The notes beneath the pieces are model-generated. The model did no database searches and was not told where the DNA came from. It saw only the letters and a program-made list of their open reading frames with translations. Both the position numbers and the translations under genes were made by a program. A stretch of 35,269 bases of DNA, from NCBI RefSeq assembly GCF_030604225.1, contig NZ_JAUVWH010000013.1:1-35269 (forward strand), given 5' to 3'. Within the stretch, counting starts at the first letter, position 1; each line of letters begins with the position of its first letter. The stretch comes from Geoalkalibacter sp. GTDB taxonomy: Bacteria > Desulfobacterota > Desulfuromonadia > Desulfuromonadales > Geoalkalibacteraceae. Below are positions 290 through 10,163 of the stretch, piece after piece.

Positions 290-1267
290 TCAATACCTCA
301 TCACCTCGCGCACCCGCGCCATCACCCGCGCCACATCGGGAATCGCCGCGTCTTCCAGCGCCTTGTTGTAGGGCATGGGCACATCGGCCGAAGCCACGCG
401 CAGCACCGGCGCGGCCAGGGCGGCAAAGGCGTGCTCCATGATGAGAGCGGCGATCTCGCCGCCCCAGCCGCCGGTCAGCCAGCACTCCTCGACGGTGACG
501 GCGCGGCCGGTCTTGGTCACGGAATCAAGAATCGCCGGCAGATCCAGGGGATTGAGCCCGCGCAGGTCAAGTACTTCGGCATTGATGCCCTCCTCGGCCA
601 ACTTCTCCGCCGCTTCCAGGCATACATAGACCATTTTCGACAGGCAGATCAGCGTCACATCCTTGCCCGGGCGTTTGACGTCGGCGACGCCCAGGGGGAT
701 GGTGTAGTCGCCCTCGGGAACCTCGCCCTTGACGCCGTAGAGCCCTTCGTGCTCGACGAAAAACACCGGATCGTCGCTGCGGATCGCCGACTTGAGCAAG
801 CCTTTGGCGTCGGCGGGCACCGAGGGCACCACCACGCGCAAGCCGGGGCAGTGCATGAGCATGGCCTCGATGGAGTGGCTGTGCTGGGCGCCGAGCTGAT
901 TGCCCGCGCCGCCCGGCGAGCGGATGGTGAGGGGCACCTTGACCCGGCCGCCGAACATGTAGCGGATTACCGCCACGTTGTTCATGATCTGATCCAGGGC
1001 AACGATGCCGAAGTTGACCGTCATGAGTTCGACGATGGGCCGCAGGCCAACCATGGCCGCGCCGCAGCCCAGTCCGGTGAAACCCGCCTCGGCGATGGGC
1101 GTGTCGATGACCCGCTTCTCGCCGAACTTGGCGAGCAATCCCTTGGTCACCTTGAAGGAGCCTTCGTAGAGGGCGACGTCCTCGCCCAGGATGAACACGT
1201 TGGGATCGCGCTCCATCTCTTCCTGCAGGGCCTGATTGATGGCGTCACGACAAGTGATCAGCGGCAT
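290..1267 (-). CDS. pdhB: Pyruvate dehydrogenase E1 component, beta subunit
   Basis: This 325-residue protein is the beta subunit of a heterotetrameric thiamine-diphosphate E1 enzyme that decarboxylates pyruvate and acylates the E2 lipoyl group. It has the family landmarks FILGEDV (about residues 25-31), DTPIAEAGFTGLGCGAAM (about 54-71) and the GAQHSH segment. The transketolase C-terminal domain carries VTVEECWLTGGWGGEI. I chose the ATG at 1267 (MPLITCRDAINQ) because CGGAG lies 6 nt upstream; a longer frame opening at 1297 has no such site and adds unrelated residues. It lies 33 bp after E1-alpha and 135 bp before E2. An acetoin dehydrogenase (AcoB-like) assignment is the main alternative. 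Confidence 0.9.
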   Translation of the reverse strand: MPLITCRDAINQALQEEMERDPNVFILGEDVALYEGSFKVTKGLLAKFGEKRVIDTPIAEAGFTGLGCGAAMVGLRPIVELMTVNFGIVALDQIMNNVAVIRYMFGGRVKVPLTIRSPGGAGNQLGAQHSHSIEAMLMHCPGLRVVVPSVPADAKGLLKSAIRSDDPVFFVEHEGLYGVKGEVPEGDYTIPLGVADVKRPGKDVTLICLSKMVYVCLEAAEKLAEEGINAEVLDLRGLNPLDLPAILDSVTKTGRAVTVEECWLTGGWGGEIAALIMEHAFAALAAPVLRVASADVPMPYNKALEDAAIPDVARVMARVREVMRY

Positions 1268-1300
1268 GGCGAACTCCGTTCGGCGGAGAAGTTGCAAGAT

Positions 1301-2287
1301 TCAGGATGCGACATAGACATCGGTCCAAAGGTCCTCGGGGCCCGGGTCGGGACTCTCTTCGGCAAAACGGATGGCCTCGGCGATGAGCTCTTTTTCCTCC
1401 GCATCGATGGTTTTGAGGTCGGTGTCCTTGACCTTGCCCTCGCTCACCAGCCAGCGGCCGAAGTTGGGAATGGGATCGCGCTCCTTCCACAGCTTTTTCT
1501 CCTGCTCGCTGCGATAGGTGCCGGGATCGGAAATGGAATGGCCGCGAAAGCGGTAGGTCAGGGCCTCGATGTAGGTCGGCCCCTCCCCGGCGCGCGCCCT
1601 GGTTGCCGCCTGGCGCACCGCCTCGTAGACCTTGAGCACGTCCATGCCGTCGACCTTGACGCCTGGGGTTTCGTAGGCGCAGCTCTTTTTGTAGAGCTGC
1701 TCGACGGCGCTGGCGCGACCGACCGCCGTGCCGATGCCGTACATGTTGTTCTCGCAGACGAACACCACCGGCACCCGATAGAGGGCCGCCATGTTCATGG
1801 CCTCGTGAAACACGCCCTGATTGGTGGCGCCGTCGCCGAACAGGCAGACCACGACCTCGTCCTTTTCCTGATACTGGATGGCGAAGCCCATGCCCACCGC
1901 CAGGGGCAGATGCCCGCCGACGATGCCGTAGCCGCCCATGAAGCGCACCTCGGGATCGAACATGTGCATGGAGCCGCCCTTGCCGCGGCTCACCCCCGTC
2001 GCCTTGCCGAACAGCTCGGCCATCACCGGACCGGGCGGCGTGCCCTTGGCCAGGATCAGCCCATGCTCGCGGTAGGCGCCGATCATGTAATCCTCTTGGT
2101 GAATGGCGCGCGCCACCCCCACGCCCACGGCCTCCTGGCCGCTGTAGAGATGCAGGAACCCCCCCATCTTGCGCTGGCTGTAGAGCGCGGGGCAGGCTTC
2201 CTCGAATTCACGGATGCGCACCATGTCGCGGTACATGGCCAACAGCTCGGTCGATTGCAGTTGCGATGCTTCCTTGCGTTCCTTCAT
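1301..2287 (-). CDS. pdhA: Pyruvate dehydrogenase E1 component, alpha subunit
   Basis: This 328-residue protein is the thiamine-diphosphate-binding alpha subunit of E1. The ThDP/Mg motif runs from GDG (residues 151-153) to NN (180-181), with ATNQGVFHEAMN between them. The phosphorylation-loop-like segment YRFRGHSISDPGTYR is present, as are FLHLYSGQEAVGVG near residue 44 and RGKGGSMHMF near 101. The length is usual for the family. It is the first visible gene of the pdh operon and is divergent from the fadJ-like gene with a 169-bp gap. E3 is not adjacent here; a lipoamide dehydrogenase gene lies about 12 kb away at 13848-15248. Confidence 0.92.
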   Translation of the reverse strand: MKERKEASQLQSTELLAMYRDMVRIREFEEACPALYSQRKMGGFLHLYSGQEAVGVGVARAIHQEDYMIGAYREHGLILAKGTPPGPVMAELFGKATGVSRGKGGSMHMFDPEVRFMGGYGIVGGHLPLAVGMGFAIQYQEKDEVVVCLFGDGATNQGVFHEAMNMAALYRVPVVFVCENNMYGIGTAVGRASAVEQLYKKSCAYETPGVKVDGMDVLKVYEAVRQAATRARAGEGPTYIEALTYRFRGHSISDPGTYRSEQEKKLWKERDPIPNFGRWLVSEGKVKDTDLKTIDAEEKELIAEAIRFAEESPDPGPEDLWTDVYVAS

Positions 2288-4581: not shown

Positions 4582-5337
4582 TCACTGCTGCCCGAGGGCC
4601 TTCTTGAGCAACTCGACATCCTGGAACAAGGGATTGCGGCGGATCTTTTCCTCCTCGGCCCCCACCATTCGGAACAGCCCGGAGACCGCCTGTTCGGTCA
4701 CGTAACGCTCGAACTCTTCCGCGGGCGGCAAGGGTTCCTCGGGCACCGCCGGCAGATCCTCGGGGGGTTCGGGCGCGACCAACTGCAAGGCACGAAACCC
4801 CTCGGCCAAATCCGCGTACTCGCCCAAGGCGCCCAACTGACCGAGATTGGCCGTCACCGCCGGTTGCAGCTGTTCCAGCAGCGCATCGGCGGTTTTTTCC
4901 TTGAGGTAATCGGTAAAGGCCGTGCGGCCGGCGGTGAGCAGGGTGCGCGCCTCGCTCAGGGGCAAATCCTCCAGGGCCTGCCCGAGAATCGGCGCCGCCG
5001 TCGGAATGGCCGCGGAAACCGCCTGATTCATGGCCTTCTCCAACCGCTCGCGGGGATCGCCGGCCTCCTCGTCGAAGAGCATGCCCACCCCCTGGAGCAG
5101 CTTGATGGCCAGGGTGACCTGCGGCGGCACCAGCAGGCGCACCAGGGGATTGTCGAAATAGCCGCCCGGCTCGGCCAGCTGCGCGATAACGTGGCGCACG
5201 CTCAGGCCCAGGGCCTGCTTGAGGTCGCGGGCCAGGCGGTCGGCGAGAGCCTGCTGCATGAGGGGCAGGGGCGAGGTGGTGCAGGACGAGAGAAACAAAC
5301 TGAGCACGACCAGCATGAGGACGAAACGGCGGGACAT
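4582..5337 (-). CDS. DUF4197 family lipoprotein
   Basis: This 251-residue protein has a lipoprotein signal peptide: a basic start (MSRR), a hydrophobic core and the lipobox LSSC with the lipidated cysteine at residue 19. The mature part is helical and matches what I recall of DUF4197, with DLKQALG near the start, a middle segment AMNQAVSAAIPTAAPILGQA, FTDYLKEKT, and a C-terminal YVTEQAVSGLFRMVGAEEEKIRRNP-like block followed by LLKKALG. An insert of about 20 acidic and proline-rich residues precedes the last block. The ATG at 5337 is chosen because the signal peptide starts there; the frame stays open to 5469 but codes for nothing recognisable. Family function is unknown; a periplasmic or outer-membrane location is inferred. 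Confidence 0.82.
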   Translation of the reverse strand: MSRRFVLMLVVLSLFLSSCTTSPLPLMQQALADRLARDLKQALGLSVRHVIAQLAEPGGYFDNPLVRLLVPPQVTLAIKLLQGVGMLFDEEAGDPRERLEKAMNQAVSAAIPTAAPILGQALEDLPLSEARTLLTAGRTAFTDYLKEKTADALLEQLQPAVTANLGQLGALGEYADLAEGFRALQLVAPEPPEDLPAVPEEPLPPAEEFERYVTEQAVSGLFRMVGAEEEKIRRNPLFQDVELLKKALGQQ

Positions 5338-5434
5338 GAACGGTGGTGATCCTTCCAGGGAAAGTTTCGCTCGCAACGAAAAAAGCCGCCCCACACAGGG
5401 ACGACCCGCAACCGACCTAAAAAAATATTCGCGA

Positions 5435-5440
5435 ATTATA
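5435..5440 (-). promoter_or_regulatory. Perfect -10 hexamer upstream of the DUF4197 gene
   Basis: On the minus strand this reads TATAAT, about 100 nt upstream of the ATG at 5337, in a locally AT-rich patch (5418-5460) unusual for this window. No good -35 lies at 16-18 bp spacing. A 10-bp palindrome, ATTCGCGAAT (5427-5436), abuts and overlaps the hexamer by two bases and could be an operator. Confidence 0.4.
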
Positions 5441-5491
5441 CTTCGGCAATCAAAAAAATGATAGCGCAACCTTTCCCTTGCCGCGCTCGCT

Positions 5492-5713
5492 TCAGCGTCC
5501 GCTGAAGGCCAGGGTCAGCGCCAATCCGACAAACACGGCGCCGGCGACCCGGTTGAGGCCCCGCTGAACACTCTCGGATCGGTTGAGCCAGGCGCCCAGG
5601 GTGCCGGCGAGCAGGGCGATGCCGCCAAACACCAAAAGGGTGGCCAGGATGAAGAGTGCACCGAGCAGCAGGATCTGCACGCTTTGGGCAACCGTCCCAA
5701 GGTCATTTGACAA
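5492..5713 (-). pseudogene. LysE/RhtB-family exporter, C-terminal remnant
   Basis: The 73-residue frame has two hydrophobic segments (about residues 11-35 and 54-70) joined by LAGTLGAWLNRSESVQRGLNR. This is the typical C-terminal third of LysE/RhtB amino-acid exporters, which are normally about 200 residues. The N-terminal membrane segments are absent. The only start in range is TTG at 5713, and the sequence upstream quickly runs into the start region of the divergent P460 gene. The open frame continues to a stop at 5792-5794 without exporter-like residues. I read it as a decayed or truncated gene whose 5' end was lost; a short expressed two-TM protein is the alternative. Confidence 0.55.
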
Positions 5714-5784
5714 GCCTCGATAATCCGCTAATTTTGCATTGTCCGCGCCGCGAATCGGCCCTTGCCGCCAAAGGAGAGCGCCCC

Positions 5785-6291
5785 ATGCCCATCAAGCTGA
5801 TCCTTGTTCCCCTGCTCCTCATCGCCCTCGCCTGCCCCGTCCATGCCGAATCAATCGTCCCGCCCGCGCCCAACGGCATCACCCTGCCCGGCGGCTACCA
5901 GAACTGGCGACTGATCAGTTCCAGCTACCGCGAGGACAACAAGACCCTGCGCGTCATCCTCGGCAACGACCAGGCCGTGGAAGCGGCCCTGCGCGGGCAG
6001 ACCAACCCCTGGCCCGACGGAGCGATCCTCGGCAAGCTGGTGTGGAAGGAAGCCCGCCACCCCCAATGGCCGGCGGCCCTCATCCCCGGCGAGCTCAGCC
6101 ATGTGGAATTCATGATCCGCGACCAAGAGAAATACGCCGACACCGTCGGCTGGGGCTTCGCCCGCTGGCTGGGCATGGATCTCAAACCCTACGGCGCCGA
6201 CGCCGACTTTGCTAGGGAATGCGTCGCCTGCCACACCCCGGTCAAGGACAACGACTACGTCTTCACCAAATTCTCGACCTTGCCGCGCTAG
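5785..6291 (+). CDS. Cytochrome P460 family protein, secreted c-type heme protein
   Basis: This 168-residue protein has a Sec signal peptide (residues 1-21, cut after VHA) and a single c-heme attachment motif CVACH at 146-150 near the C-terminus. The body matches the P460 fold family: LPGGYQNWRLIS near 34-45, ILGKLVWKEA near 81-90 with lysines that could be the heme-crosslinking residue, and YADTVGWGFARW. P460 enzymes in ammonia oxidisers act on hydroxylamine or NO. Many relatives in iron reducers and other anaerobes have no assigned substrate, so only a periplasmic redox role is inferred. ATG 5785 follows AAGGAG at an 8-nt spacing. It is 21 bp upstream of the next small gene and probably co-transcribed with it. 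Confidence 0.82.
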   Translation: MPIKLILVPLLLIALACPVHAESIVPPAPNGITLPGGYQNWRLISSSYREDNKTLRVILGNDQAVEAALRGQTNPWPDGAILGKLVWKEARHPQWPAALIPGELSHVEFMIRDQEKYADTVGWGFARWLGMDLKPYGADADFARECVACHTPVKDNDYVFTKFSTLPR

Positions 6292-6312
6292 CCTTGCCGA
6301 AGGAGTGACGCC

Positions 6313-6579
6313 ATGAGGTTGTCCTTTTTTCTTGCCATCCTTTTCACGGCCACCCTGGCACTTGCCCAGCAACCACCGGCGGCCCCGGAAAAACAACCTC
6401 CAATGGCACCCGCGCCGCCGATGCCGACACCACCCAAGCAAGCTCCGGGTACGTCCGCCCTCGGCGATGAGAACCTGCTTGAGCTGCTGCAGGCGCAGAC
6501 CGCCGCCATCAAGGCGCTGAATGAAAAAGTCGGGGAGTTGGAAAAGCGCATCGAGCGCATCGAGGAAGGAGCTCCCTGA
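6313..6579 (+). CDS. Small secreted proline-rich coiled-coil protein, function unknown
   Basis: I do not recognise this 88-residue protein. It has a clear Sec signal peptide (1-18, cut after ALA), then a proline/alanine linker (about 19-46), then a charged helix (about 53-86) with a heptad-like LLELLQAQTAAIKALNEKV pattern that should form a short coiled coil. There is no lipobox cysteine. AAGGAG precedes the ATG by 7 bases. Its stop codon shares a base with the ATG of the next gene (TGATG), so the two are translationally coupled and may act together in the envelope. An oligomerising periplasmic spacer is a guess only. Confidence 0.75.
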   Translation: MRLSFFLAILFTATLALAQQPPAAPEKQPPMAPAPPMPTPPKQAPGTSALGDENLLELLQAQTAAIKALNEKVGELEKRIERIEEGAP

Positions 6580-6947
6580 TGGCCTCGAATACCGAATCGG
6601 CCATGGCCGCCCTGGAAGCGGCGCAAAAAGCCATCGACGAAAAAGGGGCGGACGCCTCCGCCGGTTGGGTGCAGCCCTGGTCCCATGAGTTGGTGTCCTT
6701 CCTGTCCATCAGCATTCTGGTCTTCTCCCTGATCGCCCTGATCATGGCCACCATCCTGCTCTGGCGCACCAGCGCCCAGCCCAGTCAAATCCTGCGGGTT
6801 TTCGGCATACTGACCATCATCGGCTTTTCCGCCTTCCTGCTCGTCGTCGGCTACAGCAACGAACAGCTCACCCCCATCATCGGTCTCTTCGGCGCGATTG
6901 CCGGATACCTCCTGGGCAAGGATTCCAAAGCAGGCAAGGAGGAGTAG
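6579..6947 (+). CDS. Small three-TM membrane protein, function unknown
   Basis: This 122-residue protein has a soluble amphipathic N-terminus (about 1-35, alanine and glutamate rich) and three hydrophobic segments at about 39-62, 70-91 and 95-112. It ends in a charged tail (KDSKAGKEE). The last segment reads TPIIGLFGAIAGYLLGK, a glycine-rich pattern I associate with small integral membrane proteins of unknown role. The ATG overlaps the previous stop by one base, and the AGGAG site lies inside that gene's last codons. With its secreted neighbour it makes a two-gene envelope unit; no enzyme motif is present. Confidence 0.75.
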   Translation: MASNTESAMAALEAAQKAIDEKGADASAGWVQPWSHELVSFLSISILVFSLIALIMATILLWRTSAQPSQILRVFGILTIIGFSAFLLVVGYSNEQLTPIIGLFGAIAGYLLGKDSKAGKEE

Positions 6948-7097
6948 GTGGCCGCAACCCGGCGCAACCCACCGGGAAAGATCCAGGCGCGAGGTTTGTT
7001 CCGCCGAGGGGCTTTGCTATGCTTGGGGGGAGAAGGCCCGCGGGGAGGATCGACGTCGACCGAAGCTGACCCGCGTTTTTCAGGCGGTGAGAGCCTC

Positions 7098-7577
7098 ATG
7101 CCCAATTTCTGGCAGGACATGGATGAAGTCCAGACCCTGAGTCGCATCTTCCTGGCGATTTTTGTCCTCATCGGCCTGGTCCCTTTCTTCAAAAGGAGCT
7201 TTAGGCGACTGTACGACACCCTGAAATCCCTGGGGCCTTGGCGCAAGACCATCATCGTGCCGGTCCTCGGAGAAATGGAACCCGGTGCGGCCGACCCTTC
7301 CAAACTGAGCGACCTGGAATACCTCGTATTCCTGCACCTTGCCCAGAGCGGTGCCAAGGGCCTGTCGCTGCCGACCCTGGCCCAGGGCCTGCACATGGAA
7401 TTCCAGAGCATCGCCGAGGCTCTGCGCTCCCTCAACCAAAGGGGCCTGGTTGCCATCGCCCCGGGGTTTGCCCTCATCAAGAGGTTTTCCCTGAGCAGGA
7501 AGGGACGGACCCTGGCCCTGGAAAAAGGCGTGAGTGTCCGCATGTCCGCGCGAGAGAAAGGGACCATCATTCCATGA
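7098..7577 (+). CDS. Membrane-anchored winged-helix protein
   Basis: This 159-residue protein has one hydrophobic segment near the N-terminus (about 15-31) followed by a basic stretch (KRSFRRLYDTLK), suggesting an inner-membrane anchor with the rest in the cytoplasm. Residues about 70-143 look like a MarR/PadR-type winged helix: SDLEYLVFLHLAQ, GLSLPTLAQGL, a recognition-like helix FQSIAEALRSLNQRGLV, and a wing ending FSLSRKGRTLALEKG. I chose ATG 7098. The frame is open from GTG 6948, but 6948-7097 uses rare codons (CTA, CGA, TCA) and gives no plausible protein. The stop overlaps the next ATG by four bases (ATGA), so it is coupled to the hydrolase-OsmC gene. DNA binding is inferred; the domain could instead be a protein-interaction fold. 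The 150-bp gap upstream contains no other gene. Confidence 0.7.
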   Translation: MPNFWQDMDEVQTLSRIFLAIFVLIGLVPFFKRSFRRLYDTLKSLGPWRKTIIVPVLGEMEPGAADPSKLSDLEYLVFLHLAQSGAKGLSLPTLAQGLHMEFQSIAEALRSLNQRGLVAIAPGFALIKRFSLSRKGRTLALEKGVSVRMSAREKGTIIP

Positions 7578-8800
7578 AACACGAAACCCTGAGCTTCCCC
7601 AACCAAGAGGGCGAACAATTGGCCGCCATCCTCAATCTGCCCGAGGATGAGCGACCCCTGGCCTACGCGATCTTCGCCCACTGCTTCACCTGCGGCAAGA
7701 ACAGCCTCGCCGCCGCCCACATCGCCCGCGCCCTGAGCCGGCGGCGCATCGCGGTGCTGCGCTTTGATTTCACCGGCCTCGGAGACAGCGAAGGCGATTT
7801 CGCCGCCACCGGTTTCAGCCACAACGTGCGCGACCTGCTCGCGGCGGCGCACTTTCTGGCGGAGCACTATCAGCCGCCGGCCATTTTGCTTGGCCATTCC
7901 CTCGGCGGCACGGCGGCGCTGCATGCCGCCGCCGAGCTTGCGTCGGTCAAGGCGGTGGTCGCCATCGCCTCGCCCTTTCATCCCCGGCACGCCGGCAAGC
8001 TGTTCGGCGAAGCGCGGGCGGCCATCGACGTGCAGGGCGAGGCGCGGGTCGACATCGACGGGCGCCCCTTCACCATCCGCAAGGATTTTCTCGATGACCT
8101 CGAAAACCAGGATCCCGCCGAGAGCATCGCTCGCCTCAAGGCAGCCCTGCTCATCATGCATTCGCCTCGCGACGCGATCGTGGCCATCGACAACGCCCGC
8201 GAGATCTACGACGCGGCCCGGCATCCCAAGAGCTTTGTCTCCCTTGACCCCGCCGACCACCTGTTGACGCGCAAGGAGGATGCCCGCTACGCCGCCGAGC
8301 TCATCGCCACCTGGGGCATGCGCTATCTTGACCTCGCGGAGGAACCCGAGCGCCGCCCCGCGGCCCTCGATAACCGTGTGACGGCGCGCACCGACGCGCA
8401 AGGCTTGCGCACCGAGATTTTCGCCGGCGGCTATTCCTTGATGGCCGACGAACCGGAGAGCTATGGCGGCGAAGGCCTGGGTCCATCGCCCTACGATCTG
8501 CTCCAGGCCTCCTTGGGCGCCTGCACCACCATGACCTTGCAGATGTACGCCAGGCGCAAACAGTGGCCGCTGGAATCGGCGGTGGTGCGGCTGCGTCACG
8601 AGAAGATTCACGCCAAGGATTGCGAGAACTGCGAGGAAAAAAACGGCAAGATCGTCCATTTCGAGCGCGAACTGGAGTTGCACGGCCGGCTCTCCGCCGA
8701 GCAGCGCCAACGCCTTCTGGACATCGCCGAACGCTGCCCGGTGCATAAGACCCTGCACGGCGAGGTCAGGATCGCCACTCGCCTGCGGGAGGAGGACTGA
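7574..8800 (+). CDS. Alpha/beta hydrolase - OsmC fusion protein
   Basis: This 408-residue fusion has an alpha/beta hydrolase in residues 1-250 and an OsmC/Ohr-like domain in about 265-405. The hydrolase has the nucleophile elbow GHSLGG (Ser109), a likely acid at Asp200 (HSPRD) and a catalytic histidine at His229 (DPADHLLT). The OsmC part has the two expected redox cysteines, Cys317 in LGACTTM and Cys388 in ERCPVHKTL, as in thiol peroxidases of this family. This architecture is known in many bacteria; its substrate is not settled, with detoxification of organic peroxides or of small acyl compounds the usual proposal. Its start lies within the stop of the winged-helix gene, which may therefore regulate or accompany it. 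Confidence 0.9.
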   Translation: MKHETLSFPNQEGEQLAAILNLPEDERPLAYAIFAHCFTCGKNSLAAAHIARALSRRRIAVLRFDFTGLGDSEGDFAATGFSHNVRDLLAAAHFLAEHYQPPAILLGHSLGGTAALHAAAELASVKAVVAIASPFHPRHAGKLFGEARAAIDVQGEARVDIDGRPFTIRKDFLDDLENQDPAESIARLKAALLIMHSPRDAIVAIDNAREIYDAARHPKSFVSLDPADHLLTRKEDARYAAELIATWGMRYLDLAEEPERRPAALDNRVTARTDAQGLRTEIFAGGYSLMADEPESYGGEGLGPSPYDLLQASLGACTTMTLQMYARRKQWPLESAVVRLRHEKIHAKDCENCEEKNGKIVHFERELELHGRLSAEQRQRLLDIAERCPVHKTLHGEVRIATRLREED

Positions 8801-8832
8801 AAAAGTGGCCGCGCCCCTTGCTAATAACCCCT

Positions 8833-8860
8833 TTGGTCCGGCGCGGGAAAGTGATATAAA
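8833..8860 (+). promoter_or_regulatory. Promoter candidate for the HDOD gene
   Basis: A -10-like TATAAA at 8855-8860 sits about 60 nt before the ATG at 8921. The best -35 at 16-bp spacing is TTGGTC (8833-8838), a poor match. The AT-rich GTGATATAAAAGG context stands out in the 120-bp gap between the OsmC-fusion gene and the HDOD gene. Confidence 0.35.
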
Positions 8861-8920
8861 AGGGGCTTCACCGTTTCACCATTCATGAAATCAGGCCGGC
8901 AAGGTGCGCGAGGGGATACC

Positions 8921-10007: not shown

Positions 10008-10163
10008 TCAGCCGATGTACAGGTTGTGATTGCGGGCGCGATTGGCGAGGATGGTCGGGTCGAGAACCTCCCCGCAGGAGCAGCATTTCCAGGCCTCGAA
10101 GGCGCGAACGAAATCATAGAATTTCTCGGCGTACATTCTTCCTTTGCATTTGGGACATTTCAT
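10008..10163 (-). CDS. 51-residue zinc-ribbon protein
   Basis: This short gene starts at the ATG at 10163, with an AAGGGGG site eight bases upstream. The protein begins MKCPKCKGRMYAEKF and ends NRARNHNLYIG. Two CxxC knuckles (Cys3/Cys6 and Cys27/Cys30, with an extra Cys28) form a rubredoxin-like zinc ribbon. Similar stand-alone peptides of about 50 residues occur, as I recall, in Geobacter-type genomes without a known function; protein or RNA contact is possible. It follows the HhH gene after 152 bp, an AT-rich stretch with a T-rich plus strand (10259-10292) and no clear terminator, and is followed by the bidirectional terminator at 9923-9964. Confidence 0.85.
   Translation of the reverse strand: MKCPKCKGRMYAEKFYDFVRAFEAWKCCSCGEVLDPTILANRARNHNLYIG

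Follow-up and report, generated by a model that had tools for sequence, protein, structure and literature searches.

A compact envelope gene pair with widely but patchily distributed relatives lies beside a cytochrome P460 gene in Geoalkalibacter

Class I holins are proteins with three transmembrane (TM) helices, an N terminus outside and a charged C terminus inside. Two-component spanins (Rz/Rz1) are encoded by overlapping genes for a small, secreted, Pro-rich protein with a cysteine in a lipobox and for a membrane partner with a long periplasmic coiled coil. The two-gene, membrane-associated conflict system EACC1 is System 4 of PMC7159879; in it, a small conserved membrane protein with one Gly-rich TM helix and alpha+beta extensions forms a constant unit with the caspase protein itself, and caspases and many variable enzymes accompany the system.

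The locus described here lies in Geoalkalibacter sp. The window, i.e., the whole stretch of DNA analyzed (35,269 nucleotides), is one whole contig (G000:C51). An initial annotation had grouped four plus-strand ORFs at 5785-7577 as a possible one-component system sensing envelope or nitrogen-oxide stress. All four ORFs were recovered at the same positions, and the region is organized as follows:

5492-5713, minus strand: C-terminal remnant of a LysE-type exporter (73 aa, covering positions 131-192 of the 193 of profile PF01810); outside the cassette
5785-6291, plus strand: P460 gene, encoding a periplasmic cytochrome of 168 aa (Pfam PF16694, PDB 6hiu)
6313-6579, plus strand: Pro-rich gene, first of the cassette; an ORF of 88 aa with heptads, whose homologues lie 5' of the membrane gene elsewhere
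6579-6947, plus strand: three-TM gene (TM3); an ORF of 122 aa with a TGATG overlap, short form of an unnamed family
6948-7073, plus strand: segment of ~126 bp without similarity to the congeners G041, G042, or G043 (blastn)
7098-7577, plus strand: winged-helix gene (159 aa), with a single TM segment and a cytoplasmic MarR-like winged helix; outside the cassette
7574-8800, plus strand: alpha/beta hydrolase-OsmC fusion gene (Pfam Hydrolase_4, 2.7e-17; OsmC, 4.9e-16)

The row of four genes in one direction stands, but it does not end at 7577: the hydrolase-OsmC gene, omitted from the initial annotation, overlaps the winged-helix gene by ATGA. On the other side, the LysE-type remnant adjoins the start of the P460 gene; the exporter is full length (207 aa) in G041 and apparently also in G042 and G043. 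No convincing terminator was found between the genes (6 terminator-like sites versus 4.0 +/- 2.0 in shuffled sequences; one weak 5-pair stem at 6998-7012), and no sigma-70-like promoter site was found between them. Further along, positions 10008-10163 (minus strand) encode a CxxC protein of 51 aa that G041 and G042 also carry in near-identical form.

The first protein of the row is indeed a periplasmic P460 cytochrome: it matches PF16694 at E 6.5e-37 and PDB 6hiu, the Methylococcus capsulatus protein (McP460), at E 3.9e-56. Its CxxCH heme site occupies residues 146-150 (CVACH at 146), and, counted from the 6hiu alignment, Lys84, Arg56, Arg49, and Glu108 align with Lys78, Arg50, Arg43, and Asp102 of McP460. 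The two proteins share the fold family, CxxCH, the heme-cross-linking lysine (Lys84 opposite Lys78), the cap arginine (Arg56 opposite Arg50), and the arginine corresponding to Arg43; they differ in the distal carboxylate, which is Asp102 there and Glu108 here. P460 of Nitrosomonas europaea also has a distal Glu (Glu96; PMC6427953), and our residue roles and numbering agree with the passages of PMC6427953 and PMC11928373 that treat them. The lysine motif was found in 12 of the 14 homologues examined (the search string missed two), and the c'-beta-type sequences in the alignment (7ead, 6hih, and one variant) lack the lysine. Since lysine, carboxylate, and arginine cap are all in place, the protein is a predicted hydroxylamine (NH2OH) oxidase that keeps the residues of an active enzyme. 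Judged by its residues, a likely active P460 is thereby added to a lineage of this order.

P460 was detected in 17 of 136 genomes of the order, with 14 matches at E 1.6e-49 or better and three at E 7e-6 to 4e-5. The winged helix is present in 34 of these genomes, and the Pro-rich and three-TM proteins are in three and two, respectively, one of the Pro-rich matches being marginal (E 8.8e-4). Matches to hydrolase-OsmC at E <= 0.001 occur in 89 of the 136 genomes, many via one domain only; the idea that this protein is an effector missing from the pair was rejected, given its presence in so many genomes, and it was not noticed beside the pair elsewhere. The initial annotation had named repeated co-occurrence of at least three of the four genes as support for a system. 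Such co-occurrence was seen in one other genome (G043) among the 135 others of the order, which is also the only one with all four genes nearby. Strong P460 and winged-helix matches are co-present in nine genomes of the order. Outside the genus, the two are found together somewhat more often than expected by chance: the winged helix occurs in 5 of 10 genomes with P460 versus 25 of 122 others (Fisher p 0.047, uncorrected for kinship), and in those five (G003, G016, G017, G018, and G075) the two genes are located on different contigs. Within the genus, they lie within ~4 kb of each other in all four genomes.

The gene orders of the congeners differ from that of the window and from each other. 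In G041 and G042, the P460 and winged-helix genes lie within ~3 kb of each other with other genes between them and no cassette. G041 has P460, hydrolase-OsmC, a 156-aa secreted-type ORF, the winged helix, and a RecQ-like gene (by eye). G042 has P460, a 625-aa protein, which we take to be an aldehyde ferredoxin oxidoreductase, a secreted-type protein common to G041, and the winged helix. This conserved secreted-type protein of ~136-156 aa (L065 7803-8273, plus strand; L066 7080-7490, minus strand), which has no Pfam match, directly precedes the winged-helix gene in G041 and G042 and is absent from the window. In G043, the P460, Pro-rich, and three-TM genes are followed by a gene for a secreted-type protein of 179 aa, by Xre and RES (Pfam), by a methyltransferase-like ORF of 265 aa (by eye), by a winged-helix gene of 103 aa, and by hydrolase-OsmC. 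The cassette and the winged-helix gene are thus separated by ~2.7 kb of other genes, which include the RES toxin and Xre/MbcA antitoxin (L067 8250-9139, minus strand). When window positions 5301-8900 were compared with the three congeners by blastn, similarity ended at 6946 (G043) and resumed at 7074 (G043) and 7076 (G041). The idea that the pair was simply inserted at a single site was rejected, as G041 and G042 are rearranged too.

The winged-helix protein matches Pfam MarR_2 at E 0.0022, below the Pfam cut-off; its AF2 model has the arrangement HHH-bb-H, and Foldseek returned 13 PDB chains at E <= 0.001, MarR proteins. The predicted fold agrees with the earlier description of a one-TM protein with a cytoplasmic winged helix and is that of MarR-type regulators, from which the protein differs by its single N-terminal TM anchor and sub-threshold Pfam score. 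Only ~12 of its residues are outside the membrane, and the protein therefore has no periplasmic sensor domain. In G043, the gene (L067 6991-7302, minus strand) carries an in-frame deletion of residues 56-118, and the product that is left is a natural membrane anchor without a DNA-binding core. This deletion led us to reject the protein as a regulator of the pair. Outside the genus, the gene lies among unrelated genes, with no constant neighbor in the clustered loci. Because the core is lost in G043 and constant neighbors are lacking outside the genus, we conclude that the winged-helix gene is a lineage-wide orphan: the pair does not require it and is not tied to it.

A four-gene one-component sensor of envelope or nitrogen-oxide stress would fit the common direction of the four genes and the proximity of P460 and the winged helix within the genus. 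Given that the genes are distributed independently, that P460 and the winged helix are unlinked outside the genus, that the only other genome carrying the pair has lost the winged-helix core, and that the tethered protein has almost no periplasmic part, we consider such a system very improbable and do not retain that part of the initial annotation. As the distributions of the units in the order are independent, the region consists, with high confidence, of three independent units: P460, the two-gene cassette, and the winged-helix gene overlapping hydrolase-OsmC. What remains of the proposed module is the coupled pair of small envelope proteins, now on firmer ground than before. In place of a tempting but false sensory operon there is now a compact pair of genes that can be tested and whose membrane motif is nearly invariant.

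The Pro-rich protein has, as had been proposed, the features of a secreted coiled-coil peptide: a signal-peptide-like N terminus, a Pro-rich stretch, and C-terminal heptads with hydrophobic residues at a and d. The TGATG overlap that couples it to the three-TM gene is present at 6579. By hydropathy, the latter has TM segments at ~38-56 and 71-89 only, the third being weaker; the AF2 model (pLDDT 70.9, moderate) shows an N-terminal helix followed by three long helices at 36-64, 68-90, and 94-113. The third helix carries the conserved motif QLTPIxGLFGAIAGYLLGKD. The pair could be assigned to no family, as noted in the initial annotation: neither protein has a match above cut-off in Pfam or NCBIfam, and the TM3 model gave nothing at E <= 0.001 in a Foldseek search of the PDB. 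When 27 long forms and partners (see below) were compared with Pfam and NCBIfam, scattered matches appeared in one or two members only. PADLOC returned no model match for the Pro-rich, three-TM, or winged-helix protein. TM3 and its relatives were found in none of the phage and plasmid records and in none of the E. coli genomes searched, and viral contigs searched with one sequence contained no TM3 relative. The papers listed for P460/Geobacter, caspase/papain conflict systems, spanin-type pairs, anchored winged helices, and clostripain/caspase/GDSL clusters yielded nothing on the pair. Across these topics and the family libraries Pfam, NCBIfam, PHROGs, and PADLOC, the pair is undescribed.

Relatives were recovered with profiles. 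A scan with two near-identical sequences gave nothing, its patterns having fallen in the variable N terminus; a two-row TM3 profile found four relatives besides the window in 395 genomes of the phylum, and alignment A2 of those relatives led to 65 loci in named genomes. Twelve of these loci encode short forms like that of the window, in Variovorax, Nitrotoga, Zoogloea, Chromatiaceae, Sterolibacterium, Pseudomonas, Polaromonas, a gamma symbiont, a MAG labeled Verrucomicrobiaceae, two Curvibacter, and Yersinia proxima. A Pro-rich/coiled-coil secreted partner is encoded just 5' in 11 of the 12, as in the window and G043; the Zoogloea locus (L160) has none. A stop/start overlap of 1 or 4 nt joins the two genes in 10 of the 11 partnered relatives and in the window and G043, i.e., in 12 of 13 pairs (the overlap in L172 was taken from the junction sequence, its ORF extending further upstream). 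Each of the 12 short-form genomes has one copy of the cassette, and in beta- and gammaproteobacteria the two genes recur as a unit. Of 300 genomes of the Curvibacter order, four match, seed included; these include L195, a long form with the partner upstream, and L193, with the partner downstream. In the latter locus (1167-1869, minus strand), the order is reversed: the TM gene comes first and overlaps a gene for a secreted coiled-coil protein, and a Peptidase_M15_3 gene precedes both.

At most other loci, the family protein is a long form of 148-206 aa that itself bears a signal peptide, and the gene just 5' encodes a small secreted protein of another kind. A small signal-bearing ORF lies just upstream of 48 of 60 family genes versus 34 of 266 control plus-strand genes from the same loci; one criterion was used for both sets, and the p value of 4e-24 is nominal, the loci being related. 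This count omits L118 and L141 (little flank), L163 and L176 (no ORF), L151 (duplicate), and viral loci; of the 49 upstream ORFs collected, two look spurious or duplicate (L162 and L151). Profile A9, built from 21 long forms, recognizes the window TM3 at E 3.6e-15 and, in the order, otherwise only G043; the other 134 genomes of the order lack TM3, also when searched by the long-form profile. The window TM3 is 66-69% identical to the copies of Nitrotoga, Curvibacter (L175), Sterolibacterium, and the MAG of L171. In the tree, the 12 short-form rows group at 100/99 support with the window and G043 nested inside; the bootstrap is not fully settled, several branches are long, and short, duplicate, and viral rows were omitted. 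Tree nesting and this identity to betaproteobacterial copies together indicate that the pair most likely reached part of the genus by horizontal transfer.

These loci also bear on a link between the pair and its P460 neighbor. The pair might have been recruited as an operon partner that aids P460 in anchoring, electron transfer, or heme insertion. The P460, Pro-rich, and three-TM genes are indeed co-directional in the window and G043, with P460-Pro-rich gaps of 21 and 37 nt. Such a redox module is quite unlikely, as no P460 was seen beside the pair among the genes listed for the 12 short-form loci (L167 in part), all 12 other strong-P460 genomes of the order, G041 and G042 included, lack TM3, and the pair has, by its sequence, neither a heme motif nor a cysteine. 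Nevertheless, P460 and the cassette lie so close together in two species that they may be functionally tied.

One short-form cassette (L165 5435-7273, = IMG/VR UViG_2808606379) is part of a Mu-like Pseudomonas prophage; it is surrounded by head genes and adjoins a reversed 276-aa gene without a Pfam match, a typical cargo position. The main rival to our reading of the pair is that TM3 is a class-I-type holin or pore controlled by the secreted partner, through which neighboring hydrolases are released or exported. The size and predicted topology of TM3 fit this idea, as does the prophage copy, and two loci place the family near lytic functions: in L171, genes for GTA_holin_3TM and Amidase_2 proteins precede the pair, and in L193 a Peptidase_M15_3 gene adjoins the relative. 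Yet none of the 14 short forms had a PHROG match at E 0.01, and 50,697 phage records searched with three different family members as queries gave no match. The prophage cassette has no recognized lysin adjoining, most loci lack a peptidoglycan hydrolase, and L171 already has a holin of its own. We therefore regard a holin-like pore as unlikely.

Relatives of the pair are often encoded near caspases, clostripain, lipases, peptidases, MBL, or TIR proteins. Neighbors picked by hand include caspase C14, papain C1, clostripain C11, patatin, lipase_3, GDSL, MBL, metallophosphatase, and TIR proteins; they were chosen mostly for their enzyme-like look and are not a sample. Patatin, lipase_3, and papain-like C1 occur at long-form loci. 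Effector-type neighbors are found in only a minority of the short-form loci: L159, where a TIR gene directly follows the short-form gene; L164 (GDSL at 23.5 bits, below Pfam's 32.9); L161 (AAA_21); and L171, with RES-Xre further along in G043. No effector-type gene adjoins the window cassette. More systematically, 126 proteins encoded within 2.5 kb included three each of caspase C14, MBL, and GDSL and two each of clostripain C11 and Trypsin_2; among 101 proteins beyond 3.5 kb, none of these five families is among the 25 families listed, beyond which single-member families may lie. Response regulators, kinases, and transporters were present in both sets. The sets derive from 46 of the 65 loci after near-duplicates and short-flank loci were removed by hand, and omit proteins of <120 or >1000 aa, with X, or with a weak codon signal; removal of seven partner proteins reduced the near set from 133 to 126. 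Genes were called by codon-position GC, a method for GC-rich DNA that drops AT-rich genes, so that, e.g., the L159 TIR gene and the L148 caspase are missing from the 126-protein set.

Several other neighbors had no usable Pfam match (L117:1381, L133:7075, L148:2727, L165:6446, L167:6280, L173:4007, L066:7083, L067:9256, and a 331-aa neighbor in L193, which we read as trypsin-like by motif only), and L122:7682 is an ordinary pyruvate formate-lyase-like enzyme. In Nitrospira (L133, L134, and L136), large lipoprotein-like proteins of 1004-1379 aa are encoded behind the long-form cassette; that of L133 had no usable match in Pfam.

Taken as a whole, the region is probably best explained as a chance neighborhood of three units, in which the cassette may have an effector-linked role. 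That role, taken from the neighbors, is in itself tentative. We read the cassette as a mobile membrane/periplasm unit with sporadic spread. Judging from basic residues in its first loop and at its C terminus, TM3 would be an inner-membrane protein with its N terminus outside and its C terminus inside, an orientation consistent with a periplasmic N-terminal part in the long form, which bears a signal peptide. The heptads of the partner may form an oligomeric coiled coil on a Pro-rich arm, and the periplasmic tail of TM3 could engage this secreted coiled coil. The resulting membrane-periplasm complex, as sensor or gated pore, would be the part in the envelope that stays constant, and a toxic or lytic enzyme encoded next door would be the variable part and the output. 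In the window, the enzyme would be missing or elsewhere, and the cassette itself may be orphaned and share a transcript with P460. More broadly, and speculatively, the secreted partner and the Gly-rich TM hairpin could be a cross-phylum device, the constant sensor or gate of undescribed polymorphic cell-suicide or conflict systems, into which caspases, clostripains, papain-like peptidases, lipases, TIR, or MBL enzymes would be plugged; the window copy would then be orphan or newly recruited.

How does the pair compare with described systems? With two-component spanins it shares overlapping genes, a small, secreted, Pro-rich protein, and a coiled coil. It differs in the lack of cysteine and lipobox in the Pro-rich protein and in the build of the membrane partner, which spans the membrane with three TM helices and lacks a long coiled coil in the periplasm. 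We rejected a spanin assignment, since residues 1-88 of the Pro-rich protein contain no Cys and thus no lipobox. EACC1, as far as the published description of System 4 goes, is the nearest described design. It is likewise a constant two-gene unit, its conserved membrane protein is also small and has a Gly-rich TM segment, and caspases and many variable enzymes accompany it; it differs from the pair in fold and partner. The cassette has three TM helices in place of one with alpha+beta extensions, its constant partner is small and secreted, not the caspase protein itself, and its enzymes are separate and optional. Membership of TM3 in EACC1 was rejected on its three TM helices (in the model), on the lack of an adjoining caspase in the window, and on a Pfam scan up to E 1, in which EACC1 was not among the families listed; Pfam presumably holds an EACC1 model. 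The pair has a wide but patchy spread and neighbors typical of bacterial programmed death or conflict. Should it gate such enzymes, there would be, besides EACC1, a second design by which the state of the envelope is coupled to the release of effectors.
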